The translations under genes and the position numbers were made by a program. Below are positions 34,537-56,756 of a stretch of DNA of 64,000 nucleotides, piece after piece; position 1 is the stretch's first letter, and the number at the start of each line of letters is the position of its first letter. The stretch is from positions 18,118-82,117 of IMG/VR virus record IMGVR_UViG_3300027749_000082. One strand, given 5' to 3'. This DNA comes from a virus. The notes under the pieces are model-generated. The model did no database searches. It saw nothing but the letters and a program-made list of their open reading frames with translations, and was not told where the DNA came from.

Positions 34537-35112
34537 TCAGCTTAAAAGCGATGTATGCAGCTGAGAGTAAACAAAGGTAAAGGATGATTCGATTTCTCCA
34601 TCTTCTCTATAGTTATAATTAATACCTCCTAAATCAGTAGGAAAAGCTTTAGTGTAAATAAATTTAATTTTTTCGTTATTATACTCATCAAGCCCGTATA
34701 TTGTTAGGTCTGTTTGATAATCCTTAAATCTGTCATCTTGAACAAGACCTGAACTATCATATACACCTGTATATTCGTCGTGAAGTAAATTAATCCATTT
34801 ATAAATCGTCCAATAATTATTATATTGGTTATCTATTGTAAAATTAACCGTTACCGGGGGGTAAGGATTTTTACTGTGTGTAGAATTATAAAGAGTACTA
34901 CCAGAATATCTTATTTCTAACGCTGGTACAGTAATTGCAGGTACAACAGTTCCATATATAGAAAGCTGCATTGAATCTTGTATAACAGTAGCGTTATTAC
35001 GTTCATCGTGCTTATTAATTTTCTTTAGTGCATTAGGCAACTGAAAGACAAGTCTAAACTTATCAACATGTGACTTATTAAGAACTGATTGTGTATATTG
35101 ATTAGTGGCCAT
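34537..35112 (-). CDS. Tail tube-fold protein next to terminase
   Basis: 191 residues from ATG 35112 (MATNQYTQSV); the start upstream at 35184 lies inside the terminase gene and is less likely. The tube fold is well marked: FRLVFQLPNALKKI, then SMQLSIYGTVVPAITVPALE, IRYSGSTLYNSTHS, YPPVTVNFTIDNQYNNYWTI and FPTDLGGINYNYREDGEIES. The terminase stop overlaps its start by 11 nt. It could be a second tube protein, a tube terminator (gp3 or gp15 region) or a minor tail completion protein; the fold is clear, the exact position in the tail is not. Confidence 0.7.
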   Translation of the reverse strand: MATNQYTQSVLNKSHVDKFRLVFQLPNALKKINKHDERNNATVIQDSMQLSIYGTVVPAITVPALEIRYSGSTLYNSTHSKNPYPPVTVNFTIDNQYNNYWTIYKWINLLHDEYTGVYDSSGLVQDDRFKDYQTDLTIYGLDEYNNEKIKFIYTKAFPTDLGGINYNYREDGEIESSFTFVYSQLHTSLLS

Positions 35113-38263: not shown

Positions 38264-39140
38264 CCCTAATCAAATTAACTGTAATAGTAATAGTCCTGGA
38301 ATGGATTGGTATAACGCTGCTGCAGAATCACCAGAGTGTAGTCAATTCTTTGATCCATCTAACTTTCAAGCTGAACAGGTAATATATGATGCTGCTTATC
38401 AGGATATGATCAATAGCTTTGGTATACCTATAGATTACTATATTAATACATTTAATTTATCAGCTGCAGATACACTTTATGGTGAGCAACCTACAGCTAT
38501 ATTTTACGGTCCCGTTTCTTTACAAATGTATGTAGAGCTTACTGAACCTGCAGTTAATCTTTCTAAATTTGGTTTTGCTTCTGATGATGAGATGACCGGA
38601 TTTCTACATATACAAACGTTTATGGATGCAGTATCTGGAAAACGGTTCTATATACGTACATCAACAGGTAATATACTATCAATTAACGAATATTTCTCAC
38701 AAAATAAAAGAGCGGTAGGTATAAATGATACACTAATGAGTCAGTTCACAACTAATGGTCAAGTACTTGAACCAAAGTCAGGTGATCTTATACAGTTATC
38801 ACCTTTGGGTTGTGATAGACCAAATGGTCGTGGTGCTAAGATATTTGAAGTGACAGAAAGAGTAGATCAAGATGTTGCTTCTTTAAATCCTCTTATGGGA
38901 CACTATGTTTATAGATTAAGAGCTAAACGTTACGAATATTCATTCGAACCTGGCGCTCCACAAGAACAACAGAATCAACAGGTATTTGAGAATGCGTTCT
39001 CTGGTAAAAAATCTTCTACTATAACAGGTCAAGTATCATCAGCTCCTAAATCGTATCCAGGCGATGTAGATACGGAGTCACAGACAAAAGTGTTTGATAT
39101 GACTGCTAATGAGACAGATATATACGGTACGTATTATTAA
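38253..39140 (+). CDS. gp14: Neck protein, gp14-like (copy 1)
   Basis: 295 residues (T4 gp14 is 256). Recognisable blocks: FGIPIDYYINTFNLSAADTL, LYGEQPTAIFYGPVSLQMYV, LSKFGFASDDEMTGFLHIQT, EPKSGDLIQLSPLGCDRPNG, GRGAKIFEVTERVDQD, and HYVYRLRAKRYEYSFEPGAP. These match the order and text of gp14-type head-completion proteins, which connect the portal vertex with the tail. It has a near-identical partner at 41944-42813 (about two thirds identical by eye, with an identical last 20 residues). Its stop and the convergent fiber's stop share TTAA at 39137-39140. Confidence 0.75.
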   Translation: MACNPNQINCNSNSPGMDWYNAAAESPECSQFFDPSNFQAEQVIYDAAYQDMINSFGIPIDYYINTFNLSAADTLYGEQPTAIFYGPVSLQMYVELTEPAVNLSKFGFASDDEMTGFLHIQTFMDAVSGKRFYIRTSTGNILSINEYFSQNKRAVGINDTLMSQFTTNGQVLEPKSGDLIQLSPLGCDRPNGRGAKIFEVTERVDQDVASLNPLMGHYVYRLRAKRYEYSFEPGAPQEQQNQQVFENAFSGKKSSTITGQVSSAPKSYPGDVDTESQTKVFDMTANETDIYGTYY

Positions 39141-41104
39141 TTGTATAAATTACCATATACATCTAAATCTGCTTGTGTAATTAGATTTAATGGTATATAT
39201 GTACCAGCTATTGTGTTTATAGCGGTTTGTATAGCATCTGAGTAATATGATATTGATGGACCACCATATGTATACCAAAATGTCATTAATAATACAGGCT
39301 TTTTATTTATAAAGCATATATTAGGATGTCCACTATCCCCAGCTCGTGCATTCTTAAATGATAATACAGCACCTTCATTTGAGGAAAATACAGTATTGTT
39401 ATAAGTCCAAGTAGGATCTGCTGTCCAAAAAGATGTACTATACGAACCTGGGGTAATATCTTGATCTTGCGAGATCCTATAACCATGAATCCACGGCGGT
39501 ATTTTTGTAGCTGAATTAGCACAAATTAATGAGTTAGGTAGTATATAAAACCCCGGGAAAGCTGAAACAGGAAGTGCAGGACTAAGTTCGTATAATGCTA
39601 TATCACCACTATTAGCTATAAGTGTTTTACTTATAATATTTGTATTATATATTTTAGAGGGATTATTAAAATCTCTAAAATATACAGCCCGTGGTAGTGG
39701 TGTGCCGGGAGAACCTGGATCTAAGTGATTTGCTGTAATAGCAAATCTCGGATGTATTATATTTGTAGCGTAATCATTTCCTGCAAATCCGTTATAATTA
39801 TTTAGCACCGATAAAGGCCACGTGTACATACTATTTGTATTCATACCAAAAGCAGTATTTAATGCTCCATAATAAGAGTTTTGAAATGTACCATCACTAA
39901 GTGGTATATAAAAAGAATAGGGTTGTCTTTTACCTGAAAGAGGATCTGTAACAGTTTTATATTGTTCCATTAAAAGCGTGTTAGACTTTGTGGGTATAAT
40001 ATCATATAGAGGAATTGAGGTAATATTATATGCAGATAAGAGTTTAAACACTATTTCTGCAGGAAAAGGATTATTAGTAAACTTCCAAGTTGTAGGGTGA
40101 CATACTCCACTTGAATTTATATTCGAGGTTAAAACATTTACCTGTGTTGTACTTAATGCATTAATAAAATTAAAATTACTGACAGTAGAACCACTTAGAT
40201 TTGTTAATATTGTTGATTTATTAAGATTAGTAAAATCTATATAAGAGGTGCTTAATGGTATATTTGATGAATTAAAATAATAATAGTCGCCAACTGTTTG
40301 GTTAGCAGAAATTGTAGGATATATATTAGTTGAGGAAAGAGATAAAGTTGTTATTTTAAGACCTGTTAGTGTATTAGATGTTAGAGTTAAATTAAATGTT
40401 GTTAATACTGATACATTCTGATTAAATGTAAAATTTAAACTAAGATAAGGGCATCTATTATAAGGATATCGCGCATTACTACTACTCGTGGGTATATTAA
40501 AAGTTGTATTAAATTGCTTGATAGGGTCACTTATGTTAAAATATATAACATTAGCTTGTGTTGAGTAATTTGTCCAGCTAGTATCTAGATTATATGTAAT
40601 ATAGCAATTTACGGATGTTAATAGAGGATTATTAGCAAATGTAATGCTTGGCCGAAAATAAGTAGTATCACGGGGAAAACCTTTAAGATAATACCCAACA
40701 CCCCAAAACATGTAACTACTTAAAGATATATCTGTTAAAACATTATTACCTGTAACAGCAATATTATTTGTCCCTAAAAAAGGCATCAAAATAGTATAAT
40801 TACTATTTTGTATAGAATCATAGTATGTACTAACTACAGGTACAATTGTGGTATCTGGAAAACTAAAATTAATAGTTTTAAATTGACTATCTCTAATTTT
40901 AATTATTTTAAGTGCATCCTTATAGTTGTAGAATCTTTCTACTACATTCCAATTACCAGATAACCCTCCACCCATATTAATATATGTGGAACAAGATTGA
41001 CCTAGATCGATCGCCCAAAAATCCGATCGTAGATAGTTAAGTGTATACGTATTTGGTATAATAACGTTAGATAAATAAAAGGAAGTAGTTAAAAAATTAT
41101 ACAT
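39137..41104 (-). CDS. Fiber-type protein with C-terminal trypsin-like serine protease domain
   Basis: 655 residues from ATG 41104 (an upstream in-frame start would overlap the neighbouring gene). The N-terminal two thirds are Asn/Ser/Thr-rich beta sequence typical of tail fibers. The C-terminal 200 residues match a chymotrypsin fold: AITANH (H460), NSGDIALYEL (D501) and ARAGDSGHP (S591), with 41- and 90-residue spacings close to those of chymotrypsin (45 and 93). The GDSG context strongly suggests an active protease or a relic of one. It could cut fiber precursors or host surface proteins. It lies between the two gp14 copies. Confidence 0.75.
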   Translation of the reverse strand: MYNFLTTSFYLSNVIIPNTYTLNYLRSDFWAIDLGQSCSTYINMGGGLSGNWNVVERFYNYKDALKIIKIRDSQFKTINFSFPDTTIVPVVSTYYDSIQNSNYTILMPFLGTNNIAVTGNNVLTDISLSSYMFWGVGYYLKGFPRDTTYFRPSITFANNPLLTSVNCYITYNLDTSWTNYSTQANVIYFNISDPIKQFNTTFNIPTSSSNARYPYNRCPYLSLNFTFNQNVSVLTTFNLTLTSNTLTGLKITTLSLSSTNIYPTISANQTVGDYYYFNSSNIPLSTSYIDFTNLNKSTILTNLSGSTVSNFNFINALSTTQVNVLTSNINSSGVCHPTTWKFTNNPFPAEIVFKLLSAYNITSIPLYDIIPTKSNTLLMEQYKTVTDPLSGKRQPYSFYIPLSDGTFQNSYYGALNTAFGMNTNSMYTWPLSVLNNYNGFAGNDYATNIIHPRFAITANHLDPGSPGTPLPRAVYFRDFNNPSKIYNTNIISKTLIANSGDIALYELSPALPVSAFPGFYILPNSLICANSATKIPPWIHGYRISQDQDITPGSYSTSFWTADPTWTYNNTVFSSNEGAVLSFKNARAGDSGHPNICFINKKPVLLMTFWYTYGGPSISYYSDAIQTAINTIAGTYIPLNLITQADLDVYGNLYN

Positions 41105-41109
41105 AATTA

Positions 41110-41424
41110 TTAAAAGGGTGTACCGTACGTTCTGCCGTAATACCATGTATTAAAGGCTGTATCTACCGGTACGAATTCAAAAGCGCTTAATAGAGGTACT
41201 ACAGATTCATTTACACCTATAATAGTACCAGTTCCACCAGCAAAGGTTATTTCCTGTAAAATTTGTTCTGCGTAGACTATCGATACTACAGGTCTATTAG
41301 GAGTATTACCTAGGTAGTTATCTTTACCAGAAGCTGCTATATAGACTGCAGTTCTACTAGCAAATGTCCTAGCGTCAGGACCATCCGCATCAATCGTAGC
41401 ATTTCGTACACCGTATGATATCAT
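41110..41424 (-). CDS. Hypothetical fiber-cassette protein, 104 aa
   Basis: The sequence is beta-like with a Gly-rich strand (ITFAGGTGTIIGVNESVVPL) and ends with AFNTWYYGRTYGTPF. No family recognised. It lies between the MDDQL-type fiber gene and the protease-domain fiber gene, and overlaps the former by 4 nt, so it should be co-translated. It may be a small fiber-tip or adaptor protein. Confidence 0.5.
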   Translation of the reverse strand: MISYGVRNATIDADGPDARTFASRTAVYIAASGKDNYLGNTPNRPVVSIVYAEQILQEITFAGGTGTIIGVNESVVPLLSAFEFVPVDTAFNTWYYGRTYGTPF

Positions 41425-41943: not shown

Positions 41944-42813
41944 ATGGCTTGTAATACTACTAGACAAAACTGCCCACCGAGTAGCGTATTTTCTGCTATG
42001 GCATCTCCCGGTTGTAGTCAGTTCGCAAACCCTGCTAATTTCCAAGCAGAGCAATTTGTTTATAGTGCGGCGTTTAGAGATTCTATAAACAATTTTGGTA
42101 TACCTGTAGACTACTATATTAATACATATAATATTAATACAGCTGATAACTTATACGGTGAACAACCTACAGCTATATTTTATGGTCCTATATCATTAAT
42201 GATGTATGTTGAATTATCTGAAAACTCTATTAATCTATCTAAATTTGGTTTTGCTTCAGATGATGAAATGACAGGCTTTTTACATATACAAACATTTACT
42301 AATGCAATATGCGGTAAAGAGTATTTTGTTCAAACATCAACTGGCGAACTACTTACTGTAGAAGAATATTCAGATACATTTAACTTAGTAGTATCAGATA
42401 AAACACTACTTCAACCTTATTTAAATAGTAATCAAGCAGTTGAACCTAAATCAGGTGATCTTATACAGTTATCACCTTTAGGCTGCGATAGACCAAATGG
42501 AAGAGGTGCTAAAATATTTGAAGTAACAGAGAGAATGGATCAAGATGTATCATCTATTAACCCCATGCTTGGTCATTATGTATATAGACTAAGAGCTAAA
42601 CGATATGAATCTTCATTCGAACCAGGAGCTCCTAAAGAACCACAAAATCAACAAGTATTTGAAAATGCTTTTTCTGGTAAGGTATCTTCTACTATACCTG
42701 GAGAAGTGCCATCTAATCCTAAATCGTATCCAGGAGATATTAATACCGAGTCACAGACAAAAGTGTTTGATATGACTGCTAATGAAACAGATATATACGG
42801 AACGTATTATTAA
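41944..42813 (+). CDS. gp14: Neck protein, gp14-like (copy 2)
   Basis: 289 residues from ATG 41944 (eight codons after an upstream in-frame start). It carries the same blocks as the copy at 38253-39140: YINTYNINTADNLYGEQPTA, ENSINLSKFGFASDDEMTGF, VEPKSGDLIQLSPLGCDRPN, and an identical C-terminus TESQTKVFDMTANETDIYGT. The N-terminus and the 120-150 region differ most. Two gp14 homologs would be unusual for a T4-like phage, which has one, so one copy may have a changed role. It lies in a plus-strand island between fiber genes and shares a TTAA stop with the convergent fiber gene. Confidence 0.75.
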   Translation: MACNTTRQNCPPSSVFSAMASPGCSQFANPANFQAEQFVYSAAFRDSINNFGIPVDYYINTYNINTADNLYGEQPTAIFYGPISLMMYVELSENSINLSKFGFASDDEMTGFLHIQTFTNAICGKEYFVQTSTGELLTVEEYSDTFNLVVSDKTLLQPYLNSNQAVEPKSGDLIQLSPLGCDRPNGRGAKIFEVTERMDQDVSSINPMLGHYVYRLRAKRYESSFEPGAPKEPQNQQVFENAFSGKVSSTIPGEVPSNPKSYPGDINTESQTKVFDMTANETDIYGTYY

Positions 42814-43496
42814 AATAAAGGAGCTGGTGCTACCTGTTTAGCCGTTATATATGATCCACTGGTTATTGTAACAGGAATAATTCCGGGGGATACTGTACTA
42901 TGAAATAATGTTATAACTGTAGGACTATAAACTGTTAATAACAATTTATAAGAAGTTGGACGATTAAACATATTATATAGCCCTTGACTAGGATTACCTA
43001 CTATAAATGTAGATAGTGTATTATTTATATTTGACATATATACCCCTGTACCCGGAGTATTAACGGGTATACCCGAACTGTATGGTAAATACCCCATACC
43101 TAATGAAGTAACAGGGTTAGAAGCAGATAAAGTAAAATCTATAGTCCATATACCGGTGCTGGATAAGGTAGAAGTATTATTACCAGTTGTATAAGGATAA
43201 ATTAATGCAGTTACAAAATAAACACCAGAAGATAATGTTAATGTTATACCTGATGGAACATAGGCAGAGGTAGCAAAAACAGTAGTAGAATCCGATGTTA
43301 ATATACTGGTATATGTGTTACCATATCTCATATCCCCATAACCTCTATTAATTATATCACTACTTAAAGTAGTGATTTGGCTTGCAGCAATAAACTGATT
43401 ATTAATAGTTAAATTACCTGTTAAGTTTATATTACTTAAAGTAGGAGATGCTGTAGAATCTGTATTGGATAAATCTGATAAAGCATGAAGAGGCAT
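42810..43496 (-). CDS. Tail fiber paralog A (MPLHALSDLSN family)
   Basis: 228 residues, first of three neighbouring paralogs. The shared start is MPLHALSDLSN.DST...T then ...SGLTI/LTI, followed by a variable beta domain ending in ITSGSYITAKQVAPAPLF. This copy is the most diverged at its N-terminus (residues 20-60). An AATAAATA sits 1 nt before the ATG, too close for a leader, so its promoter is unclear. Small beta-rich virion adhesins of this type are exchanged readily. Confidence 0.65.
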   Translation of the reverse strand: MPLHALSDLSNTDSTASPTLSNINLTGNLTINNQFIAASQITTLSSDIINRGYGDMRYGNTYTSILTSDSTTVFATSAYVPSGITLTLSSGVYFVTALIYPYTTGNNTSTLSSTGIWTIDFTLSASNPVTSLGMGYLPYSSGIPVNTPGTGVYMSNINNTLSTFIVGNPSQGLYNMFNRPTSYKLLLTVYSPTVITLFHSTVSPGIIPVTITSGSYITAKQVAPAPLF

Positions 43497-43511
43497 ATAT
43501 TTATTTTATAT

Positions 43512-44183
43512 TTAAAGTGTTGGTCTTGCTATTATAAATGAACCTCTATGACAAATTAGTAAAGCAGGTGGTGATGTGGTAGAAGTAGGGGTAGCAGTAA
43601 TAAAAATTCTTGTATTATTATTATAAATTTTTAAAGAATAATTAGCTATATAATATTTAGCACCAGTATCACCAGCAGAATAAGCAAATGTACCTTGCGA
43701 TACGGCACTAAGAGATATTCGCATACTTTTTTGACTAGATTGTACAGTAGAATAAGCTTGTATTGTACCGAGTGTACTGGGTAAGGGTGATATAAAACTT
43801 CCCATAATATCTATAGTATCCGTAGCAGATAAACCATGTCCATAAGAAGGTGCTCCTCCAGATAAATTCTGAAAAAATATTTTTGATTCGACAGTATATG
43901 TACCTGCATTTAGAATCAAAGAAATACCCATCTCGGTATATGTAAGGGGTGTAGTATATAAATTACCCACAATACTATCAGCAGATAATATACTCATATA
44001 TATATTACCATATCTTTTATCAGCAGTAGCTTTAGTAACTACACTACTACTTAAAGTTAATACTTGATTAGGAGCATATATTTGGTTATATACTGATAAA
44101 TTATTAGTTATAGTCAACCCACTAATAGTAGGAGATGATGTAGAATCCACATTAGATAAATCTGATAAAGCATGAAGAGGCAT
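43512..44183 (-). CDS. Tail fiber paralog B (MPLHALSDLSN family)
   Basis: 223 residues. Its first 50 residues are nearly identical to paralog C (MPLHALSDLSNVDSTSSPTI then SGLTITNNLSVYNQIYAPNQ), while the rest is unrelated in text and ends in TPTSTTSPPALLICHRGSFI. A conserved N-terminus with a variable body is the expected layout of a docking head plus exchangeable receptor-binding or enzyme domain. Confidence 0.65.
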   Translation of the reverse strand: MPLHALSDLSNVDSTSSPTISGLTITNNLSVYNQIYAPNQVLTLSSSVVTKATADKRYGNIYMSILSADSIVGNLYTTPLTYTEMGISLILNAGTYTVESKIFFQNLSGGAPSYGHGLSATDTIDIMGSFISPLPSTLGTIQAYSTVQSSQKSMRISLSAVSQGTFAYSAGDTGAKYYIANYSLKIYNNNTRIFITATPTSTTSPPALLICHRGSFIIARPTL

Positions 44184-44187
44184 ATAT
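44071..44187 (-). repeat. 117-bp direct repeat, copy 1 (start of paralog B)
   Basis: Nearly identical to 44804-44920, with two mismatches spotted by eye. It covers the upstream edge and first 37 codons of paralog B. It could serve as a site for recombination between the paralogs. Confidence 0.85.
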
Positions 44188-44202
44188 TTATTTTATTTAT
44201 TA

Positions 44203-44916
44203 TTAACCAACTTGTGTGGCTATCATCCATGATCCCTTGTACATTGTTACAGGATTACCTACAGTTAATGTATTTTGAAAATACAAAATATAAAACCTAC
44301 AAGGTGTATTTACAAATATAGTTGTTTGATGTAAGAACATTCTACCCCCATTTAATGCTGCTGTATCAGAAAATGTGTTACCATTAACTCCTGATATTGG
44401 AGTTAAAGAAGTTGTATTTATATTTATAATAGTTCCACCTAAAGCTGCCGTAGCCCATGTACTTCCTATAGGTGCTGTAGTAGGCTGTTTAATACCTGTT
44501 ACAATAATATTAGCATCAGTAACACTAGTTGTACAATTAACATTAGTTGTAATAATACTCATTTTTAATCCAGTAGCTGTAGTAGAATTTAAATTATTAC
44601 CGTAACATAGTGAATCTATTATGTATACTCCGGTAGAAAGGGCTAAGTATAAGGGACAAGCAGATAATATGTCAGCATACCCCATAGCATTATTATCAAT
44701 AGGAGGTCCGTCAGCAGATAATATATTTACAAACATATTACCATACCTTTTATCTGCTGCATACTGAGTCATTACACTACTACTAAGTGTAGCTGTCTGG
44801 TTAGGAGCATATATTTGATTATATACAGATAAATTATTAGTTATAGTCAACCCACTAATAGTAGGAGATGATGTAGAATCCACATTAGATAAATCTGATA
44901 AAGCATGAAGAGGCAT
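44203..44916 (-). CDS. Tail fiber paralog C (MPLHALSDLSN family)
   Basis: 237 residues. It shares its first 50 residues with paralog B and diverges after YAPNQ. The C-terminal part ends in TVGNPVTMYKGSWMIATQVG, the same G-S-(W/F/Y)-I-A-(T/R/K) ending seen in A and B. So start and end are conserved and the middle varies, consistent with a short trimeric fiber with a variable tip. A late motif is not visible upstream of this copy. Confidence 0.65.
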   Translation of the reverse strand: MPLHALSDLSNVDSTSSPTISGLTITNNLSVYNQIYAPNQTATLSSSVMTQYAADKRYGNMFVNILSADGPPIDNNAMGYADILSACPLYLALSTGVYIIDSLCYGNNLNSTTATGLKMSIITTNVNCTTSVTDANIIVTGIKQPTTAPIGSTWATAALGGTIININTTSLTPISGVNGNTFSDTAALNGGRMFLHQTTIFVNTPCRFYILYFQNTLTVGNPVTMYKGSWMIATQVG

Positions 44917-46540: not shown

Positions 46541-46574
46541 CAAAAACGCCTCTTTATAAAAATATAAAGAGGCG
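46541..46574 (-). terminator. Intrinsic terminator of the 85-aa protein gene
   Basis: On the minus strand, an 11-bp perfect stem (CGCCTCTTTAT, arms 46547-46557 and 46564-46574) with a 6-nt loop, followed by a T5 run. It lies 29 nt past the stop at 46604 and just before the next late motif. Confidence 0.85.
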
Positions 46575-46603: not shown

Positions 46604-46861
46604 TTATTTCGCTAAGCTATTAATATGAGCTGTAACAGCAGTTAAGATATCTGCATTTGACCATTCAAGTGGTTTGTCATAGTTGTCTCCAGATAATTCA
46701 GTAAGAACAACTCTACCAAGACCTTGAATAAATACAGCTACTTCTTTTTGTGAAGGAATATCAACAATTCTTTCAATAGATACTGTTGTTGGAAGTGTTG
46801 TAGTAACAGCAGGTGATGTAACAACTACAAGTTCTGTAGGGAGTGTAATGTCTAAGCTCAT
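46604..46861 (-). CDS. Hypothetical small protein, 85 aa
   Basis: Beta-rich sequence (LVVVTSPAVTTTLPTTVSIE, EVAVFIQGLGRVVLTELSGD) with a helical end (NADILTAVTAHINSLAK). No family recognised. It has its own late motif (5-nt spacing) and its own terminator, so it is a single-gene late unit, which suggests a virion component made in large amounts. It sits between the GT25 gene and the beta-roll fiber. Confidence 0.65.
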   Translation of the reverse strand: MSLDITLPTELVVVTSPAVTTTLPTTVSIERIVDIPSQKEVAVFIQGLGRVVLTELSGDNYDKPLEWSNADILTAVTAHINSLAK

Positions 46862-46866
46862 ACTAG

Positions 46867-46874
46867 TATTTATA
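46867..46874 (-). promoter_or_regulatory. Late promoter motif TATAAATA
   Basis: Perfect consensus ending exactly 5 nt before ATG 46861 (spacer CTAGT). Confidence 0.8.
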
Positions 46875-46896: not shown

Positions 46897-47517
46897 CTAA
46901 ATAATATTCGAACCAAAATCCTTAATTTGTATGATAGAATTAAAAGGTTCTATTTTCTTTGTTAGACATTTACCACCCTGTCTATTGTTTTTACTCATTT
47001 GCTGTAATATCTTTGCATAGAAATTATCTATCTCCATACCAGAAGCATCACACATATAGATAATATCATCAAAAATCCTATGATTAACTCCATAAGCGTG
47101 TAGTTCTACTATCTGATTATTAAACAATTGCTCTTGTAATCCTCCAAAATATAACAAATCAAAATTTTGTATATTAAAATAATTACCATTTAATAATACA
47201 TTAGGGTCTATTGTAAATTTAATATCATCTTCAAATATAAGGATATTCTTATAATTATTAACTTTAGCATCCTTGATAATGTTTAGGTGTGCTGCTCTAC
47301 AACCAAGTTGACCTTTAATATACTTTTCTTCTCTGTGTATAAAGTTTCTATATAGAGAGATATCTGGTATAGTATCAACAACTATACCTGTAGCACGTTG
47401 ATAATTAGTAATATTGTATTGTTTAAATTGATCTAGTATGTGTTGATTCCTATCAACATCCTTATCTAAATTAATATAATATACTTTATCAAATAAATTA
47501 TTAACTAAATTATTCAT
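46897..47517 (-). CDS. Glycosyltransferase family 25-like protein
   Basis: 206 residues. KVYYINLDKDVDRNQHI (residues 11-27) is the GT25 opening (V-x-V-I-N-L-x-R-x-x-x-R). GCRAAHLNI (72-80) followed by NILIFEDDIKF (EDD 96-98) is the E-D-D metal and donor site. GT25 enzymes transfer Gal, Glc or related sugars to lipopolysaccharide or to collagen-type hydroxylysine. The gene overlaps the sulfotransferase gene by 4 nt and is the last of a run that begins with a fiber gene. Confidence 0.85.
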   Translation of the reverse strand: MNNLVNNLFDKVYYINLDKDVDRNQHILDQFKQYNITNYQRATGIVVDTIPDISLYRNFIHREEKYIKGQLGCRAAHLNIIKDAKVNNYKNILIFEDDIKFTIDPNVLLNGNYFNIQNFDLLYFGGLQEQLFNNQIVELHAYGVNHRIFDDIIYMCDASGMEIDNFYAKILQQMSKNNRQGGKCLTKKIEPFNSIIQIKDFGSNII

Positions 47518-48338
47518 TGTTTATAATTGAAGATATCACGATACCATTGAAAGTTAGTATCAATCCAATTACAAATATCTCGACCTAGTACCTGTTGAGG
47601 TTTATTATCCTTTAATTCTAATTTAGGTTTAATAACATGATCACCAAATACACCATAAACGCTATCATCTTCCTGTGTAGCTTGTTCAATACGATTTACA
47701 TTATGATTAGAATAGAAGGGTAGTTCAAAATATTCGTAAATTTTCTTTAATACAATATTAGGAGTTAAACACAAATCTTCATACTTGACAAATAACATAT
47801 TCTCATTTAATCCCTGTCTAAAGATCTCCTGTAGTCTCTCTATAGCTAATCCTAAAGGCTGAGTATTAACATAATGATCAACTCTCTTACCAGTAGATGT
47901 ATTTTTAAGCTCAGCATGATTAACAATCCCACTATCCTTATCAGGTGAAGATCTAAACTTATTCTCCATAGAGCATATGATTTGTTTCATATCTCTAACC
48001 ATGCATATTACCTTGGGTTGTTCGTTAAGAGCAAACTTCAATAAATCCTGATGAATTCCCCAACCTCTTGATTTCTCGAGTACAATAGGCTTATCAGTAA
48101 CAGCATCATAAAATCCTCTTAATCCTGCATTACAGAAATTTTGGAATCCTTTTCTCATTAAATCACTATCCTGTGCTTTAAAGGTAGGGTCATTAGAGAA
48201 ATTTGCTCTAGCTCCATATATAAGTTCGAGTGTACCTGATGTTGGTGTACAGTAAAAGTCAGGATTTTGAGCTAATATATTTTGAATTAGTGTTGATCCT
48301 GCTCTTGGTAGAGATGAGTTAAATAGTAGTTTTTTCAT
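47514..48338 (-). CDS. PAPS-dependent sulfotransferase-like protein
   Basis: 274 residues. SSLPRAGSTLIQNIL (8-22) is the 5'-phosphosulfate-binding loop and ICMVRDMKQIICSMENKF (111-128) the 3'-phosphate-binding region of the sulfotransferase family. KSRGW (89-93) follows the family's central strand. It would move a sulfuryl group from PAPS to a sugar or peptide hydroxyl. No PAPS-making genes are visible, so PAPS must come from the host. It overlaps its neighbours by 4 nt on each side, fixing it in the fiber-GT operon. Confidence 0.85.
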   Translation of the reverse strand: MKKLLFNSSLPRAGSTLIQNILAQNPDFYCTPTSGTLELIYGARANFSNDPTFKAQDSDLMRKGFQNFCNAGLRGFYDAVTDKPIVLEKSRGWGIHQDLLKFALNEQPKVICMVRDMKQIICSMENKFRSSPDKDSGIVNHAELKNTSTGKRVDHYVNTQPLGLAIERLQEIFRQGLNENMLFVKYEDLCLTPNIVLKKIYEYFELPFYSNHNVNRIEQATQEDDSVYGVFGDHVIKPKLELKDNKPQQVLGRDICNWIDTNFQWYRDIFNYKQ

Positions 48339-49225
48339 ATAAGATTTTTTAAGATTGCATCAACATCGAATATCTCGTAAGGGGATGTATATGGACACTC
48401 GTGAACAGCTCCTGTAAAATTATAATCATACAAGTAAGAATCAACTGTACCTTCTCTAAATTCTACTACTGGCTTAATATTATTATGCATACTATAACCA
48501 AAGATTTCTGGTTGAGTAGCTACCCACACAACAGTAGAAGGGAGGTTCATAGCTGCAGCTGCGTGTTGTAAGGAAGAGTCAATTAATAGTCTAGCTTGTG
48601 ATTGTTGTAAGGCACTAAATAATACTTTCTTTTGCATTACTTGATCTACACGTAGAGCGCTATTTAATACAGGATGTAAGTCATAACACACATGAACTAC
48701 AAAATACTTTTCACTTAAGAGATCAACAATCCTCTGTGCAATAACAGGATGTATGTCTCTCATCCATGAATAAGGAGTCTCTTGATGACCTGTACCAGGT
48801 CCTCCGAACGGTTGAAATATAATAACTGGTTTATCAGTTGGATTTTGAAATAATTTACTACCTAATTCCTGCTCTCTAAAGTTAAAGTGCAGTGATGGTA
48901 GTTCGTTATTATACACAACACCAATCATATTACACCATGTATCTATAAGGTTCTTACTTTTTGTAATATGAGATGTTTGTTTATAAGGTTCTTGAGCAAA
49001 AACCTCTACATCTTTTTCAAAAATAAAATCTTTATAAAAATGAGGTGTATTATTGAGCTTATAAACTCTATCAATAAAAGGGTTGTTTAGATAAACTTCA
49101 GGCCAAGCGCAATTAACAATAACTCTTGTTAAAGGATTGTGTTTTTTATAGCACTCAACAACTGCAGTTGAAGCTATATGCTTTCCTATACCTCCCTCAA
49201 TATGAAAAATTGCTGTGTCAGACAT
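48335..49225 (-). CDS. GT9-like (heptosyltransferase-type) glycosyltransferase
   Basis: 296 residues. The start FHIEGGIGKHIASTAVVECY fits the GT9 N-terminal G-x-G-D/K nucleotide loop, and LLIDSSLQHAAAAMNLPSTV is the D-S-x-x-x-H-x-A-A-A donor-binding motif. VIIFQPFGGPGTGHQ matches the I-x-x-x-P-G central strand. Heptosyltransferase-type enzymes act on lipopolysaccharide cores, but members in phages are not tied to one acceptor. It starts 45 nt past the stop of the Cys-rich fiber gene, with no promoter motif, so it is probably transcribed with it. Confidence 0.8.
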   Translation of the reverse strand: MSDTAIFHIEGGIGKHIASTAVVECYKKHNPLTRVIVNCAWPEVYLNNPFIDRVYKLNNTPHFYKDFIFEKDVEVFAQEPYKQTSHITKSKNLIDTWCNMIGVVYNNELPSLHFNFREQELGSKLFQNPTDKPVIIFQPFGGPGTGHQETPYSWMRDIHPVIAQRIVDLLSEKYFVVHVCYDLHPVLNSALRVDQVMQKKVLFSALQQSQARLLIDSSLQHAAAAMNLPSTVVWVATQPEIFGYSMHNNIKPVVEFREGTVDSYLYDYNFTGAVHECPYTSPYEIFDVDAILKNLI

Positions 49226-49270
49226 TAATAAAATTTAATGTCAACCAGTGATAAATCAATAGCTAATTAA

Positions 49271-51058
49271 TTATACAATAGTTAATACACCACCATTACT
49301 CCATATAGAACCTGTACCTAAACCATCGCAACTTGTAGGTACATTAGTAAGAACAAGAGTTGGTGCATATGCTGTATTAGCTGAGATAGCAGTAATATTT
49401 GTTCCAGCTATAACAGACGAGCAAGTAGCTGTAGAGCAAGTGCAATTACTCTTACCCCCTAAAATACTAGAATAATCTCCACTAGCTGTATTAGAACGAC
49501 CACCAGCTATATTAGAAAAATAACTACTAGCTGTATTACGAAAACCACCAGCTACATTAGAGTAACTACTAATTGCTGTATTACACCAACCACCAGCTAC
49601 ATTAGAGTAATTGTTACTAACTGTATTACATATACCACCAGCTATATTAGAATTATTAGCACTAACTGTATTACAACAACCACCACCTATACTAGAATAC
49701 GTACCTAAAGCTGTATTACAACAACCACCTCCCACTACACTCCAATTCCTAGCTGTATTACACTGACCACCACCTATAGCTCCATATCTACCTGATGTTG
49801 TATTGCAACTACCACCTGCTATAGTACCGTAACCAACAGCACTACAAGTCTTATTATAAGCACCACCACCTATTGTAGCATATTGACCACAAACTACTGT
49901 GTTACTAAGACCTCCTACAATTATTGAGTAAGTTGTATTAGTAGTAGTAGTTGTATTGCAACAACCGTTACCTATAAAACTATAATTACAACTAGCTATA
50001 TTATTACAACCACCAGCTATATTAGAAAAATAACCGCTAGCTGTATTACAAAAACCACCTAATACACTAGAAGCAAGACCACATGAAGCATTACAATACC
50101 CACCACCTATATTAGAGCAGTTACCACTAACTATATTAAACTGTCCACCAGCTACATTAGAATAACTACCATTTGCTGTATTACCACAACCACTACCTAC
50201 ACTAGAATATGCGCTTAGAGCTAAATTACTACAGCCACCAGCTATATTAGAAGTATTCCCACTAGCTGTATTAGAACGACCACCAGCTATATTTGAAGCA
50301 TATCCACTAGCTGTATTAAAACGACCACCAGCTACATTAGAGTAATTGTTACTAGCTGTATTTTGTCTACCTCCTGCTATAGTAGAGGCAAAACAACAAG
50401 AGTTATTAAAAGCACCACCGCCTATAGTTCCAAAATAACCGTTAGTTATGCAGTTAGTACTACCTCCACCTACAAAACTATAATTCGCTCCAGCGCAATT
50501 ATAACCACCACCACCAACAGTTGAACCCACAGCACCGCTAGCTATGTTACCGCAACCACCCCCTATAAAATTATAGATTCCATTACTAACTACATTTAAA
50601 GTTCCTCCTGCAATAACAGCTCCAACAGTACCATTACATATATTATTACTAATACCACTACCAATTATTGATTGTTGGCTACCGGTAATATTATTACAAC
50701 AACCAGCTACTATAGCACTATTCCATGTATAAGCACAGTTTGTTATAATATTGCAATAACCACCAGCTATTGAATTGCAACCTGTTGTAGGTAATGCATT
50801 ATTTGTACCTATTTGCAAATAATTTGCTGAAACTCCACCAGCAATACTTTGAGTAGTTGTAAAATAATTATTAGCAGTTTTAACAGCAAAATTATTACAC
50901 ACCGTATTAAAATTATTATTAGTTAAAAATATGCCTGAAAGATAAGGTGTGAGGGAAGCTAATGGCTCTTGCTTCGTTACGCCTACTTGAACAAAAGGTA
51001 TTAATTCATTGCCTGTAAAAGCAGTACCTAATGGAAGACATGAAATTTTAACGGACAT
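49271..51058 (-). CDS. Cys-rich beta-roll fiber with about 28 YadA-like repeats
   Basis: 595 residues. About 28 imperfect 15-residue repeats (examples: SNVAGGRFNTASGYA, SNIAGGCSNLALSAY, SSIGGGCCNTVSANN) fill residues 85-540. The pattern is the left-handed beta-roll of trimeric adhesin heads. The column just before N-T is often Cys or Cys-Cys, giving an apparent cysteine ladder along the roll. The N-terminus (KISCLPLGTAFTGNELIPFV) is a diverged version of the ISQL-type docking start, and the C-terminus ends in SCDGLGTGSIWSNGGVLTIV. An AATAAATA motif ends exactly 5 nt upstream. It heads the GT9-sulfotransferase-GT25 operon. Confidence 0.8.
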   Translation of the reverse strand: MSVKISCLPLGTAFTGNELIPFVQVGVTKQEPLASLTPYLSGIFLTNNNFNTVCNNFAVKTANNYFTTTQSIAGGVSANYLQIGTNNALPTTGCNSIAGGYCNIITNCAYTWNSAIVAGCCNNITGSQQSIIGSGISNNICNGTVGAVIAGGTLNVVSNGIYNFIGGGCGNIASGAVGSTVGGGGYNCAGANYSFVGGGSTNCITNGYFGTIGGGAFNNSCCFASTIAGGRQNTASNNYSNVAGGRFNTASGYASNIAGGRSNTASGNTSNIAGGCSNLALSAYSSVGSGCGNTANGSYSNVAGGQFNIVSGNCSNIGGGYCNASCGLASSVLGGFCNTASGYFSNIAGGCNNIASCNYSFIGNGCCNTTTTTNTTYSIIVGGLSNTVVCGQYATIGGGAYNKTCSAVGYGTIAGGSCNTTSGRYGAIGGGQCNTARNWSVVGGGCCNTALGTYSSIGGGCCNTVSANNSNIAGGICNTVSNNYSNVAGGWCNTAISSYSNVAGGFRNTASSYFSNIAGGRSNTASGDYSSILGGKSNCTCSTATCSSVIAGTNITAISANTAYAPTLVLTNVPTSCDGLGTGSIWSNGGVLTIV

Positions 51059-51063
51059 ATTAA

Positions 51064-51071
51064 TATTTATT
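51064..51071 (-). promoter_or_regulatory. Late promoter motif AATAAATA
   Basis: It ends exactly 5 nt before ATG 51058 (spacer TTAAT). It overlaps the -35 of the divergent early promoter by two bases. Confidence 0.6.
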
Positions 51072-51098
51072 GGATTAAGCTATTATTTATAATACAAT
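51070..51098 (+). promoter_or_regulatory. Sigma70-type early promoter
   Basis: TTGGAT (51070-51075), 17-nt spacer, TACAAT (51093-51098). The -10 ends 6 nt before ATG 51105. Confidence 0.5.
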
Positions 51099-52064: not shown

Positions 52065-52266
52065 ACACACAAGTTTTTTAAAATACTTTATTAGTAAGTA
52101 TCTTAAGCCTGTCGATGACACTATTGAGTATGATCCTGAGCAAGTTGCTAAGGGTACTAAGGAAGAAATGGAGCACACCAAGTATCCGAAAATAGCGGAA
52201 GTTATTGCTAAGCAGCAAATTGCTGCTAATCCTAATATGTACAAAAATAAAGAAGAAATTAGTTGA
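52048..52266 (+). CDS. Hypothetical small protein, 72 aa
   Basis: A Lys-rich protein with an N-terminal helix containing SKHTSFLKYFISKYLKPVDD and a C-terminal charged helix. No family recognised. It is probably translated from the same message as the preceding gene. Confidence 0.55.
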   Translation: MAKSSKHTSFLKYFISKYLKPVDDTIEYDPEQVAKGTKEEMEHTKYPKIAEVIAKQQIAANPNMYKNKEEIS

Positions 52267-52291
52267 TTTAATTATATAGTGATAGTATAAT
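52263..52291 (+). promoter_or_regulatory. Sigma70-type early promoter
   Basis: TTGATT (52263-52268), 17-nt spacer, TATAAT (52286-52291). The -10 ends 8 nt before ATG 52300. It would drive the dTDP-sugar gene run. Confidence 0.7.
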
Positions 52292-52299
52292 TATTCTAT

Positions 52300-53160
52300 A
52301 TGAGTAATGTATTAATTATCGGTGCTGGTTATGTAGGTAATAATCTATATGAGTGGATGAATAAGGAAATACACAATCATAAATTATGGTTGGTAGCACG
52401 TAAAGCTTTAGATTATGCAGATCAATCCGATCTTAGAAAATTTATATTAAACAATGACATTCACTATATTGTTAATTGTAGCGGATTTACTGGTAGGCCT
52501 AATGTTGATGAGGGTGAACTAAAGAAGAAAGAGTGTTGGGATCTTAATGTAGTTATACCTCTTAATATTAGTAATACCTGTAAGCAATTAGGTATTAAAT
52601 ACATTCATATTTCATCGGGGTGTATCTATAGCGGATACGATAAGGTATGGACGGAGCTAGATGAACCTAATTTTGGTTTATTTGATCAATCGTCAACATA
52701 CTCTAAGTCTAAGCACGCTTTTGAGACACTTAGTGATTACGGTTGTATAGTGCGTGTACGTATGCCTTTTTGTAATAACTACAATCCGCGAAGCTTCCTT
52801 ACAAAAATTCATAAGTACGATCAATTAATTAATTTTAAAAACTCTAAAACATATATACCGGATTTGTGCAGGTTTATAGAGTATCTTATTAATAATAAAG
52901 TTGACCTTTCTGCAGTTAATACTATTAACTTTGTTAACCCTCAAGCTCTTGATACTATGCAAGTTACTGATTTAATGTCAGCAAATGGTTTGGATAATCC
53001 TAAATGGGCTTATGTTGATCCTAAACTGCTTAATATGTTAGCACCAAGATCTAATTGTGTCTTATCCATTAGTAAGCTAAAATCATTGTTTCCTGATTTT
53101 GATATACAAACAGAAAAGCAGGCTCTTGATAAAGCTCTTAGTAATATTAAAATAGACTAA
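52300..53160 (+). CDS. RmlD-like NAD(P)-dependent sugar reductase
   Basis: 286 residues. GAGYVGNN (8-15) is the Rossmann glycine loop; SSGCIYSG (105-112) and YSKSK (134-138) give the Ser and Tyr-x-x-x-Lys of the extended SDR family. The overall text is like dTDP-4-dehydrorhamnose reductase. With rmlA and rmlB immediately downstream, it would reduce a 4-keto-6-deoxy sugar. The epimerase RmlC is absent, so the product need not be L-rhamnose and the reductase name is provisional. Confidence 0.75.
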   Translation: MSNVLIIGAGYVGNNLYEWMNKEIHNHKLWLVARKALDYADQSDLRKFILNNDIHYIVNCSGFTGRPNVDEGELKKKECWDLNVVIPLNISNTCKQLGIKYIHISSGCIYSGYDKVWTELDEPNFGLFDQSSTYSKSKHAFETLSDYGCIVRVRMPFCNNYNPRSFLTKIHKYDQLINFKNSKTYIPDLCRFIEYLINNKVDLSAVNTINFVNPQALDTMQVTDLMSANGLDNPKWAYVDPKLLNMLAPRSNCVLSISKLKSLFPDFDIQTEKQALDKALSNIKID

Positions 53161-53161
53161 T

Positions 53162-53896
53162 ATGACTAAAGGTATTATTTTAGCGGGAGGAAAAGGTACA
53201 CGATTATACCCACTTACCCATTGCATTAGTAAACAGTTACTTCCTGTTTATCATAAACCAATGATCTACTATCCATTGCAGACTCTGAAGAGTATGGGTA
53301 TAACAGAAGTTCTTATTATTACAGCTGATCCACAGCAATGTAGATTGTTTGAAGATCAACTTAAAGATGGCTCACAATATGGTCTCAATTTAACTTATAA
53401 GGTCCAAGATTCGCCACGCGGCTTACCTGATGCATTTATTGTAGGGGAAGCATTTATTGGTAGTGATGATGTAACTTTAATTCTTGGTGATAACGTATTT
53501 ATTACACCAGAAGTAATTGAAGCTGAGCCTAATACAATCTTTACTTATAAAGTTAAACATCCAGAATCATACGGTGTTATCCAGTTAACAGAAGATGGTT
53601 ATATCGACAAGCTTATTGAGAAACCAGTAGAGTTTGTTAGTAATGATGCGGTTGTAGGTTTATATGTATTTAAAAATGAAGTAGTTAATGTAGCAAAAAC
53701 GTTAACACCTTCAGCCAGAGAAGAGCTTGAAATTGTTGATCTAATTAAAGCAATGAATTCTATAGAGAGAGTAAAGGTACAGCAGTTAGATGGATTTTGG
53801 TTTGACTGCGGTACACACGACGATTTACTTGAATGCTCAAATCTCGTACGAGCAATAGAACAAAGAACAAACACAATCGTTGGACTTTATGAATAA
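53162..53896 (+). CDS. rmlA: Glucose-1-phosphate thymidylyltransferase-like (RmlA family)
   Basis: 244 residues. GGKGTRLYPLT (9-19) is the nucleotidyltransferase G-x-G-T-R signature, SKQLLPVYHKPMIYYPLQTL the sugar-phosphate site, and ILGDNVF (107-113) the Asp metal site. It joins dTTP and glucose-1-phosphate to make dTDP-glucose, the substrate for RmlB. It is shorter than the usual 290 residues, lacking the allosteric C-terminal part; the reaction should still be possible. The gap to the preceding stop is 1 nt and it overlaps rmlB by 17 nt. Confidence 0.9.
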   Translation: MTKGIILAGGKGTRLYPLTHCISKQLLPVYHKPMIYYPLQTLKSMGITEVLIITADPQQCRLFEDQLKDGSQYGLNLTYKVQDSPRGLPDAFIVGEAFIGSDDVTLILGDNVFITPEVIEAEPNTIFTYKVKHPESYGVIQLTEDGYIDKLIEKPVEFVSNDAVVGLYVFKNEVVNVAKTLTPSAREELEIVDLIKAMNSIERVKVQQLDGFWFDCGTHDDLLECSNLVRAIEQRTNTIVGLYE

Positions 53897-54860
53897 AATA
53901 ACTTACCTTGTTACCGGATCATTTGGGTTTATTGGCTCTCATGTCATTATAGAACTATTAAAAAATCCTAATGCTATTATTATTAATATTGATAATTTGA
54001 GTATTGGGAGTGATCCAAAAAACGTACCTATTAGCGAAAGATTAATCAATTATTATATAAATATCTGCGATGAAAGCATCTTTGAAATCTTTGAATCTCA
54101 TAGACCGGATTACATTATTCATCTTGCAGCGGAGTCGCATGTTGATCGATCGATTAGCAATCCTCTTAGTTTTGTCGAATCTAATGTAAACGGTACAGCT
54201 AATATTCTTGAGGGTATGAGACGATTCGTACCTAATGCAAGAATGGTGCATGTGTCTACAGATGAAGTATATGGTCATTTAGAAATAGATGATGAACCGT
54301 TTACAGAAGAAACACCAATTGATGCTCGTTCACCTTATTCTGCATCTAAAGCAGCATCTGATATGTTAGCTTTGTCTTACAGAAATACTTATAAACTAGA
54401 TATTACTGTAACTCGATGCTGTAATAATTATGGTGAGCATCAACACGATGAAAAACTGATTCCTACTATAATTCGTTCTATTGTGAGTGGTAATAGAATA
54501 CCTGTTTACGGAAAGGGTGATAATATTCGTGAGTGGGTATATGTTAAGGATCATGCTAAAGCGGTATTAGAAGTACTCCATCACTTCTCACGTCGACGGA
54601 TCTACAATCTATATGGTATAGAACGCTACCGTAACTTAGATCTTATTAAAAAGATTATAGACGAGCTTGTTGAAATCTATCCAATTTATAAGCGTGACTC
54701 GTATGAGGATTATATTACTTTTGTAGAAGATAGAAAAGGTCACGATTTTAAATACGCAATGTCCTCTATACACGATGAGATTACTGCTTTACATCGACAG
54801 GAAAGCTTTACAACAGCGATTACTAAAACAATCAACTACTATGTGTCTAAATATGCTTGA
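53880..54860 (+). CDS. rmlB: dTDP-glucose 4,6-dehydratase
   Basis: 326 residues. GSFGFIGS (13-20) is the NAD-binding loop; HLAAESHVDRSISNP, STDEVYG (126-132, catalytic Asp/Glu) and YSASK (153-157, catalytic Tyr and Lys) identify RmlB. It turns dTDP-glucose into dTDP-4-keto-6-deoxyglucose. The start at 53880 overlaps rmlA; the alternative at 53889 removes three residues. Together with rmlA and the reductase it makes a 6-deoxy sugar nucleotide for the glycosyltransferases elsewhere in the window. Confidence 0.92.
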   Translation: MDFMNKITYLVTGSFGFIGSHVIIELLKNPNAIIINIDNLSIGSDPKNVPISERLINYYINICDESIFEIFESHRPDYIIHLAAESHVDRSISNPLSFVESNVNGTANILEGMRRFVPNARMVHVSTDEVYGHLEIDDEPFTEETPIDARSPYSASKAASDMLALSYRNTYKLDITVTRCCNNYGEHQHDEKLIPTIIRSIVSGNRIPVYGKGDNIREWVYVKDHAKAVLEVLHHFSRRRIYNLYGIERYRNLDLIKKIIDELVEIYPIYKRDSYEDYITFVEDRKGHDFKYAMSSIHDEITALHRQESFTTAITKTINYYVSKYA

Positions 54861-55734: not shown

Positions 55735-55983
55735 ATGTTTTGCGGTTGTGGTAGTATTGTAGAATCAGCGCGTGCTGATCTAAATTTAAGAACGTGTCGT
55801 ACATGTGCCTTTACAGGTCCTGATGTTCAACGACCGAAAGGTACAATGATCTATTCTCATAAAACTTCTGGTGAGATTGAGATTCATACGGCAGATAGTT
55901 GGCGTGAAAAAAAGAAGTACTATGTACCTAATGGTAATGGAAGGTCTTGTGTTAAGAACTTTAGTAAGAATATTGCAGTTTAG
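55735..55983 (+). CDS. Small cysteine-rich (zinc ribbon-like) protein
   Basis: 82 residues. FCGCGSIVESARADLNLRTC then RTC gives C3, C5, C20 and C23, arranged as a possible C-x-C ... C-x-x-C zinc site at the N-terminus; the C-terminus is basic. No family recognised. Its stop TAG and the convergent HNH gene's stop overlap at 55980-55983. Confidence 0.55.
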   Translation: MFCGCGSIVESARADLNLRTCRTCAFTGPDVQRPKGTMIYSHKTSGEIEIHTADSWREKKKYYVPNGNGRSCVKNFSKNIAV

Positions 55984-56756
55984 TTTTTTCTTTGAGATGA
56001 AGCTCTACACCTTACGCTGCAATAAGTTTTTTGTTTAAGAACACCCGGTTTACCGTATATTAAATTATCACACTGAGCGCATGGTTTGGATATTATTAAA
56101 GCAAATCTTGTTGGTGGTTTAGATTTACCCTTCCTAGAGTTATCTGTACATTCCTTTGAACAAAATTTTCTTTTTTCAATTATATTTGGTGTGTTAATCA
56201 TTAACTCCTTACAACATTCACACCTTTTTTGTATACGTCTTTGTTGTGACTTACTAGAACAAGCAGTTGAGCAATAAGAACGTCCTTTAGACTGTGATGG
56301 TATAATCTCAAAATCTTGATAGCAGCCCTTACACTTTAAAATTGCTTTATTTTTTTGACTGTCAACTTTACACTGTATACTACAAAAAGATCTATTACTA
56401 CATTCTAAAGATTTAAAAGTAATTCTACAATGTTTACAAGTTGTGTCTATACGTGGTACATATAATTTTCTTCTTAACCAGCCATACAATTTATTTCTTC
56501 TCCAGTACTTACTTACCTTTGTATCTTTTGACATTACATCACAAGCTCTAACTAAACGTAGATTGTTAGGGTATATCTTAACTAGTAACTGATGAGCTAC
56601 ATAATGTTCTTCTGGTGTAAGAGATACTAAATTTTCAGGTTCATCACTACCACCCATACATCGTGGTATAATATGATGTATTTCTTTATAACCTTCAATT
56701 ATACCTCTTACCTGACCACGCTTCACCAGCTTTTCATATATTAATTTGTATTGCAT
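55980..56756 (-). CDS. HNH homing-type endonuclease with zinc-finger repeats
   Basis: 258 residues. EIHHIIPRCMGGSDEPENLV then L-T-P-E-E-H-Y-V-A-H (H28, N42, H51/H55) is the H-N-H nuclease core in the typical phage mobile-endonuclease text. From residue 100 four C-x-x-C ... C-x-x-x-C zinc-finger-like units follow (CKHC, CKGC, CECC, CAQC cores), likely for DNA recognition. Such genes spread by cutting sites in related phages. It is the only minus-strand gene among the plus-strand early genes and has a late-type AATAAATA 8 nt upstream. Confidence 0.85.
   Translation of the reverse strand: MQYKLIYEKLVKRGQVRGIIEGYKEIHHIIPRCMGGSDEPENLVSLTPEEHYVAHQLLVKIYPNNLRLVRACDVMSKDTKVSKYWRRNKLYGWLRRKLYVPRIDTTCKHCRITFKSLECSNRSFCSIQCKVDSQKNKAILKCKGCYQDFEIIPSQSKGRSYCSTACSSKSQQRRIQKRCECCKELMINTPNIIEKRKFCSKECTDNSRKGKSKPPTRFALIISKPCAQCDNLIYGKPGVLKQKTYCSVRCRASSQRKN

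Follow-up and report, generated by a model that had tools for sequence, protein, structure and literature searches.

A Late Phage Operon That Joins a Beta-Roll Fiber to a GT9-Fold Glycosyltransferase and a Sulfotransferase: Possible Sulfated Sugars on the Fiber

Introduction

On what do a glycosyltransferase and a sulfotransferase act when they are encoded directly behind the gene of a phage fiber? This question is raised by a four-gene locus in a 64,000-nucleotide stretch of a virus genome (IMG/VR record IMGVR_UViG_3300027749_000082, hereafter the window), comprising bases 18118–82117 of an 82,117-base record whose ends are not closed. The locus encodes a Cys-rich beta-roll fiber, a glycosyltransferase of the GT9 fold, a sulfotransferase dependent on 3′-phosphoadenosine 5′-phosphosulfate (PAPS), and a short GT25 glycosyltransferase. 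The identities of these genes, their arrangement as a late operon, a cassette conserved in dozens of aquatic viruses, and a link between this cassette and the fiber can all be read at the level of sequence, and many phages probably attach sulfated sugars to fibers of their own making. The virus, which infects aquatic bacteria, is a myovirus whose packaging is of the T4 type (tail sheath at 32073–34505, T4-like terminase at 35102–36808), and the window has a content of guanine plus cytosine of 32%. Its structural genes lie mostly on the minus strand, and nuclease and sugar-nucleotide genes occupy the plus strand from 51105. The features of the operon, all on the minus strand, are as follows (aa, amino acids):

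51084–51091, minus strand: second copy of the late motif before the fiber, TATAAATA, at −33
51064–51071, minus strand: AATAAATA, a late-type promoter motif at −13 from the fiber ATG that is kept before the fibers of close relatives
49271–51058, minus strand: Cys-rich beta-roll fiber, 595 aa, the proposed acceptor, with GGG/NTASG-type repeats and almost no acidic residues
48335–49225, minus strand: GT9-fold glycosyltransferase, 296 aa, assigned by Foldseek, with a C-terminal DS..H motif
47514–48338, minus strand: PAPS-dependent sulfotransferase, 274 aa, assigned by PF13469 (3e-13), PAPS-binding motifs and fold
46897–47517, minus strand: short GT25 glycosyltransferase, 206 aa, PF01755 (5e-13), an optional member of the cassette
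46867–46874, minus strand: late promoter of the 85-aa gene, TATAAATA
46604–46861, minus strand: small conserved late protein, 85 aa, found 3′ of the sulfotransferase in most close relatives
46547–46574, minus strand: intrinsic terminator-like hairpin of 12 pairs plus T tail, end of the transcription unit

Results and Discussion

A Late Operon of a Fiber and Three Enzymes

An earlier reading of the locus, made from the sequence only, had described a fiber gene under a late-type motif, followed by three overlapping enzyme genes without an internal promoter or terminator. All four open reading frames (ORFs) are indeed present on the minus strand, with 4-nt overlaps between the GT9-fold and sulfotransferase genes (48335–48338) and between the sulfotransferase and GT25 genes (47514–47517), and with a gap of 45 nt between the fiber and the GT9-fold gene. 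The late-type motif precedes the fiber as AATAAATA at −13 and TATAAATA at −33, and is absent before each of the three enzyme genes. We assign it to the T4-like late promoter class, that is, a TATAAATA-type motif at a fixed distance before structural genes: NATAAATA lies exactly 13 nt before the ATG of 9 ORFs in the window, including that of the sheath, against 0.028 expected there. Terminator-like sites on the minus strand of the scanned region number 2, against 2.3 expected by chance, in agreement with the lack of an internal terminator, and the clear terminator-like site (46574–46547) lies 3′ of the next gene (46604–46861).

In 15 close relatives, the overlap between the GT9-fold and sulfotransferase genes is invariably 4 nt and both genes lack the −13 motif. 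All fibers with complete starts in these relatives bear the motif, except for the second of two tandem fibers in L004–L006 (L numbers denote individual loci), which begins 9 nt past the first. Because this pattern of motif and overlap holds in the window and in the 15 relatives, we consider the predicted late co-transcription of the fiber and enzyme genes to be well supported. We note also that the late motif (e.g., 46867–46874 and 51064–51071) stops 5 nt short of the ATG throughout the window, and late messages would therefore be nearly leaderless; several plus-strand genes have TATAAT a few bases ahead of their ATG.

Identities of the Operon Proteins

The gene identities proposed by the sequence-only reading have likewise held up, by Pfam and by fold. 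The sulfotransferase matches Sulfotransfer_3 (PF13469) at 3e-13 (51 bits against a cut-off of 27), and its model (predicted local distance difference test, pLDDT, 87) resembles tyrosylprotein and other PAPS sulfotransferases in fold. The 5′ phosphosulfate-binding (5′-PSB) motif PR[SA]GST is present in all 90 relatives compared, and the 3′ phosphate-binding (3′-PB) motif, of the VR-x7-S type, in 86 of the 90 (R115...S123 in the window). Since the PAPS-binding motifs are intact, and a gene for adenosine 5′-phosphosulfate (APS) kinase adjoins the sulfotransferase in most relatives, these features argue, the second of them circumstantially, for a real sulfate-transfer enzyme. A profile scan of 84,980 species genomes, which detects close relatives only and could miss distant cellular sulfotransferases, points to a subfamily that is nearly restricted to viruses: it returned 6 loci, all on contigs from metagenome bins or single cells, of which 3–5 have fiber-like or cassette neighbors, as would be expected of phage contigs in bins.

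A Pfam search with the GT9-like protein gave no match to Glyco_transf_9 or to any other family. Its assignment comes instead from an AlphaFold model (pLDDT 76), for which the top Foldseek matches were 3tov (3e-11, TM 0.66), 1psw, and TibC, and from the C-terminal donor-site motif DS..H, present in 80/80 relatives. In WaaC and WaaF, the catalytic Asp sits in an N-terminal G-D motif. As G.GD occurs in none of the 80 relatives, we describe the protein as having a GT9 fold, and not as a member of GT9. The relatives share a single near-invariant Cys (C98), and the protein begins with the glycosyltransferase domain. Membership in the bacterial autotransporter heptosyltransferases (BAHT), to which TibC belongs, was considered and rejected, as the iron finger of four conserved Cys and the N-terminal beta-barrel are missing, and so is the catalytic Asp (Asp-110 in TibC, PMC4358343).

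The GT25 protein matches Glyco_transf_25 (PF01755) at 5e-13 (49.8 bits against a cut-off of 24). Homologs with 50–70% identity stand after the sulfotransferase in L026, and between the GT9-fold and sulfotransferase genes in L039, L040, L042, L044, L046, and L063. A loose single-sequence search gave matches in 11/90 loci, of which 7 hold clear homologs (8 loci counting the window), and a chance insertion was rejected on the grounds of this recurrence. Judged from these loci, GT25 is an optional member of a cassette whose core is the GT9-fold and sulfotransferase pair.

The fiber itself had no match in Pfam. It consists of 17.6% Gly, 13.4% Asn, 12.1% Ser, 10.3% Thr, and 6.2% Cys, with only 0.6% Asp plus Glu, and the fibers of relatives carry homologous repeats. 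We note separately that L032 (16300–19557) and L035 (6258–10508) encode, near a PF11397 GlcNAc transferase, virion-type proteins that contain long Thr-Pro repeats of a mucin-like kind and are possible targets of O-glycosylation.

The Cassette Is Conserved across Viruses and Tracks the Fiber

A profile search of viral contigs with the sulfotransferase gave 253 relatives, of which 80 were fetched and combined with the loci of a first scan, so that 90 loci were compared, on contigs from <10 kb to 373 kb and with about 48 sulfotransferase clusters at 90% identity. The GT9-like gene was found in 82 of these loci, the beta-roll fiber in 71, APS kinase in 60, a nucleotidyltransferase resembling nicotinamide mononucleotide adenylyltransferase (NMNAT) in 53, and DUF2061 in 55; all of these counts are lower bounds, because contig ends cut many loci. 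Typically, the genes run from the fiber through GT9-like, sulfotransferase, APS kinase, and nucleotidyltransferase to DUF2061, often with a small gene directly after the fiber. Enzymes directed at proteins also occur within the clusters, namely, a PF11397 GlcNAc transferase in 12 loci and a SET-domain protein in 8 (n = 90). Distances between sulfotransferases correlate with those between the GT9-like proteins (r = 0.83), which supports co-inheritance but not function, as single-copy neighbors can co-vary by shared descent.

Of 58 loci with enough flank, 52 have a beta-roll fiber no more than 5 kb from the sulfotransferase (30/34 after dereplication). As a control, loci were re-collected with the APS kinase and with the nucleotidyltransferase as anchors. 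At APS-kinase-anchored loci with enough flank, a fiber was found within 5 kb in 18 of the 23 with the sulfotransferase and in none of the 19 without it (9/12 vs 0/14 after dereplication, p = 7e-5), and the corresponding counts for the GT9-like gene were 22/23 and 0/19 (dereplicated p = 2e-6). The fiber therefore tracks the GT9-like and sulfotransferase genes and not the APS kinase, and, by gene order and neighborhood, the three form a conserved viral cassette.

Supply of PAPS

The APS kinase adjoins the nucleotidyltransferase in 79/80 loci, and in 4 of the 60 loci with the kinase the two are fused or merged. The profile of the kinase matches solved APS kinases (8e-18), and that of the nucleotidyltransferase, a protein of 125–150 aa, matches NMN adenylyltransferases (3e-9). 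Thus far, the neighborhoods suggest that a phage-encoded PAPS supply travels with the sulfotransferase in many relatives. In L086–L088, the nucleotidyltransferase and a full CysC-type APS kinase (224 bits) form one protein, encoded beside the sulfotransferase (10800–11849 in L086). This fusion suggests a single pathway and raises the idea, as a hypothesis only, that the nucleotidyltransferase could be a minimal ATP sulfurylase; the fusion protein is a possible compact viral PAPS synthase.

A similar fusion is found without this sulfotransferase in Stenotrophomonas phages, and, of the viral loci anchored on the APS kinase, approximately half are without it. By the control above, the APS kinase pair has further uses in other viruses, and not all viral cysC genes belong to the cassette. 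In L118, L129, L151, L165, and L174, the trio of kinase, nucleotidyltransferase, and DUF2061 is not accompanied by this sulfotransferase and is surrounded by glycosyltransferase, aminotransferase, oxygenase, and carbamoyltransferase-like genes. Other sulfotransferase-like genes at the APS-kinase loci that lack it were candidates by motif that Pfam did not confirm, and the only record returned by a search of cultured phages for this APS kinase is from an uncultured virus.

Sugar-Nucleotide Genes and Other Neighbors

Beyond the fiber, on the opposite strand to the operon and behind an early-type (sigma70-like) promoter at 52263–52291, lie three genes:

52300–53160, plus strand: RmlD-like NAD-dependent sugar reductase/epimerase (PF01370, PF04321; TIGR01214 1e-12, below cut-off)
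53162–53896, plus strand: RmlA-like glucose-1-phosphate thymidylyltransferase (PF00483 8e-55; TIGR01207 4e-77, 259 bits, below the cut-off of 361)
53880–54860, plus strand: RmlB-like dTDP-glucose 4,6-dehydratase (TIGR01181 1e-97, 327 bits, cut-off 365)

Together, the predicted products of these genes (52300–54860) could make a dTDP-6-deoxyhexose of one kind or another, as no RmlC was seen. Synteny of the three genes extends to L009, L010, L021, and L025, and in part to L006 and L022, whose flanks are truncated.

Three further observations concern the remaining neighbors. A 669-aa protein of the fiber region (39137–41146, minus strand) carries GDSGHP and TANH motifs like those of a chymotrypsin-type serine protease, without a Pfam match; its GDSGHP is conserved in L022, L024, and L025 (~33% identity). 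Three tandem paralogues of 223–237 aa with the N-terminus MPLHALSDLSN (42810–44916, minus strand) are probably short fibers. Finally, a gene at 55980–56756 (minus strand), opposite to its neighbors, resembles HNH endonucleases and encodes several Cys pairs of zinc-ribbon-like type; it may specify a homing endonuclease.

What the Enzymes Act on

We hold, with slightly more belief than doubt, that glycosylation and sulfation by the phage are directed at its own fiber. The four genes would then be a late virion-decoration operon: with the fiber produced late, the cytoplasmic GT9-like enzyme (together with GT25 here, and with other glycosyltransferases in relatives) would attach a sugar to Ser, Thr, or Asn residues of the fiber, with the dTDP-6-deoxyhexose from the phage rmlA, rmlB, and rmlD-like genes as a plausible donor, and the sulfotransferase would move sulfate from PAPS onto this sugar before assembly, transfer directly onto the protein being less likely. 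The PAPS would come from the phage APS kinase and NMNAT-like nucleotidyltransferase in most relatives, and from the host in the lineage of the window. We infer the acceptor, the sugar, and the order of steps, as well as any benefit, be it negative charge, stability, adsorption, or shielding. A protein acceptor is favored because of the PF11397 and SET genes in the clusters and the precedent of TibC on a repetitive adhesin. A broader version, which we find doubtful as a whole, is that of a widespread, virus-specific fiber-sulfation cassette that makes its own PAPS through a compact APS kinase and a nucleotidyltransferase that acts as a minimal ATP sulfurylase, such that a large share of viral cysC would serve virion decoration and not cysteine synthesis.

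Several points weigh against fiber decoration. The loci all stem from one sulfotransferase family, so that the counts are not independent events, and the fiber detector is a rule of repeat motif and composition and not a curated family. The GT9-like protein lacks the iron finger of TibC and has GG.GK in place of the catalytic G-D in 78/80 relatives, and no PAPS-supply genes were found in the window's own record, an 82-kb fragment. Lastly, enzymes that modify the receptor of the fiber would give the same linkage. The sequence-only reading had taken late expression beside the Ser/Thr/Asn-rich fiber as an argument that the fiber, and not the cell surface, is the acceptor; the functional link to the fiber is now much stronger than that reading could show, as the GT9-like and sulfotransferase genes follow it across divergent viruses and no beta-roll fiber lies close to the APS-kinase loci without this sulfotransferase (0/19), but late expression beside a fiber does not exclude the cell surface, since a receptor-altering enzyme could sit there too.

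Receptor masking is for this reason a serious rival, albeit one we consider unlikely: the three enzymes would act late on host lipopolysaccharide (LPS), capsule, or another glycan recognized by the fiber, to keep progeny from sticking to debris and to block superinfection. GT9 and GT25 are typical families of LPS biosynthesis, rml sugars are common in O-antigens, and receptor-modifying enzymes could well adjoin and co-evolve with a receptor-binding fiber. Yet the operon contains no flippase, lipid-carrier, or membrane glycosyltransferase gene, its predicted expression is late and not early, the clusters include protein-directed enzymes, and the association of the cassette with the beta-roll fiber type spans phage genomes from ~80 kb to >340 kb. 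Sulfation of fiber tyrosines by the sulfotransferase, with the glycosyltransferases doing separate jobs, would fit the nearest solved structures, which by fold and sequence alike are the tyrosylprotein sulfotransferases TPST1/2, as well as the Tyr residues (4.5%) that recur in the fiber repeats. The catalytic Glu of human TPST lies in CGEE, after a Cys of the 5′ region. In a profile alignment, this position is taken by CTPT/TPTSG, invariant in 90/90 relatives; the fiber tyrosines, unlike TPST substrates, have almost no acidic residues around them, and the sulfotransferase is nearly always accompanied by a glycosyltransferase. We thus rejected tyrosine sulfation as the first choice, the catalytic region and the acidic context both being absent, and regard it as improbable. 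About as improbable, in our view, is that the sulfur genes serve host sulfur assimilation or the sulfation of small molecules, with the fiber nearby by accident. This corresponds to the published reading of viral cysC (PMC10914622, PMC9529941), and the many APS-kinase loci without the sulfotransferase are in line with it; on the other hand, the window lacks an APS kinase, PAPS sulfotransferases use up PAPS without reducing it, the operon is late, and the adjacency of fiber and GT9-like genes is far above the control. We give hardly any credence to modification of phage DNA by these enzymes: phage glycosyltransferases that hypermodify DNA are known (as cited in PMC12619734), but the genes are apparently co-transcribed late with a consistently adjacent fiber, and among the genes and stretches inspected, which did not amount to an annotation of the whole genome, there was no base-hydroxymethylating enzyme.

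Comparison with Known Systems

To our knowledge, no sulfotransferase or PAPS genes take part in the virion glycosylation of mycobacteriophages. There, as in our proposal, phage-encoded glycosyltransferases decorate virion proteins, although the reported targets are capsid and tail-tube subunits (Freeman et al. 2023, as cited in PMC12619734) and not a beta-roll fiber. The TibC/AAH autotransporter heptosyltransferases share the GT9-type fold of the phage protein, and are encoded with, and act on, a repetitive surface adhesin (PMC4358343); the phage protein differs from them in lacking the iron-finger cysteines, beta-barrel, and catalytic Asp discussed above.

Among cultured phages, Pelagibacter phage HTVC111P combines a fiber with a GT9-like gene, and so does Pelagibacter phage HTVC112P, in which a 756-aa beta-roll repeat fiber (gp48) is followed, with a 1-nt overlap, by a GT9-like gene (gp49), the product of which reaches 22.1 bits against the Glyco_transf_9 cut-off of 22; unlike in the window, this fiber ends in Peptidase_S74 and no sulfotransferase stands beside it. 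Sulfotransferases of the same Sulfotransfer_3 superfamily, at 28–30% identity, occur in the cyanophages S-SKS1, S-SRM01, and S-SCSM1 (and also in OM43 phages, PMC10580990). In the Synechococcus phages S-SKS1 and S-SRM01, this distant enzyme lies beside Gly/Ser/Thr/Asn-rich repeat proteins, whereas the S-SCSM1 copy lies among replication genes, and no cassette of GT9 and APS kinase was recognized in these cyanophages. The single-cell marine virus AG-345-L05 encodes two sulfotransferases and one GT9-like protein in alternation with long repeat proteins.

Our partial search of the open-licence literature found no paper that joins phage sulfotransferases or viral cysC to fibers, or that describes fiber sulfation. 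The function of phage sulfotransferases has been called unclear (PMC10580990), and fiber decoration, if true, would account for them: sulfated glycoproteins would be present on the receptor-binding fibers of phages, often with a sulfate donor supplied by the virus. As here, the APS kinases described as viral cysC auxiliary genes are found in aquatic phages and are distinct from cellular ones, and they have been assigned to assimilatory sulfate reduction (PMC10914622, PMC9529941); in contrast to this assignment, a large subset of those analyzed here adjoins a sulfotransferase and a fiber. Genes now counted as viral sulfur cycling would then have to be read differently, and the cassette offers an alternative to the sulfur-assimilation reading that can be tested on culturable phages.

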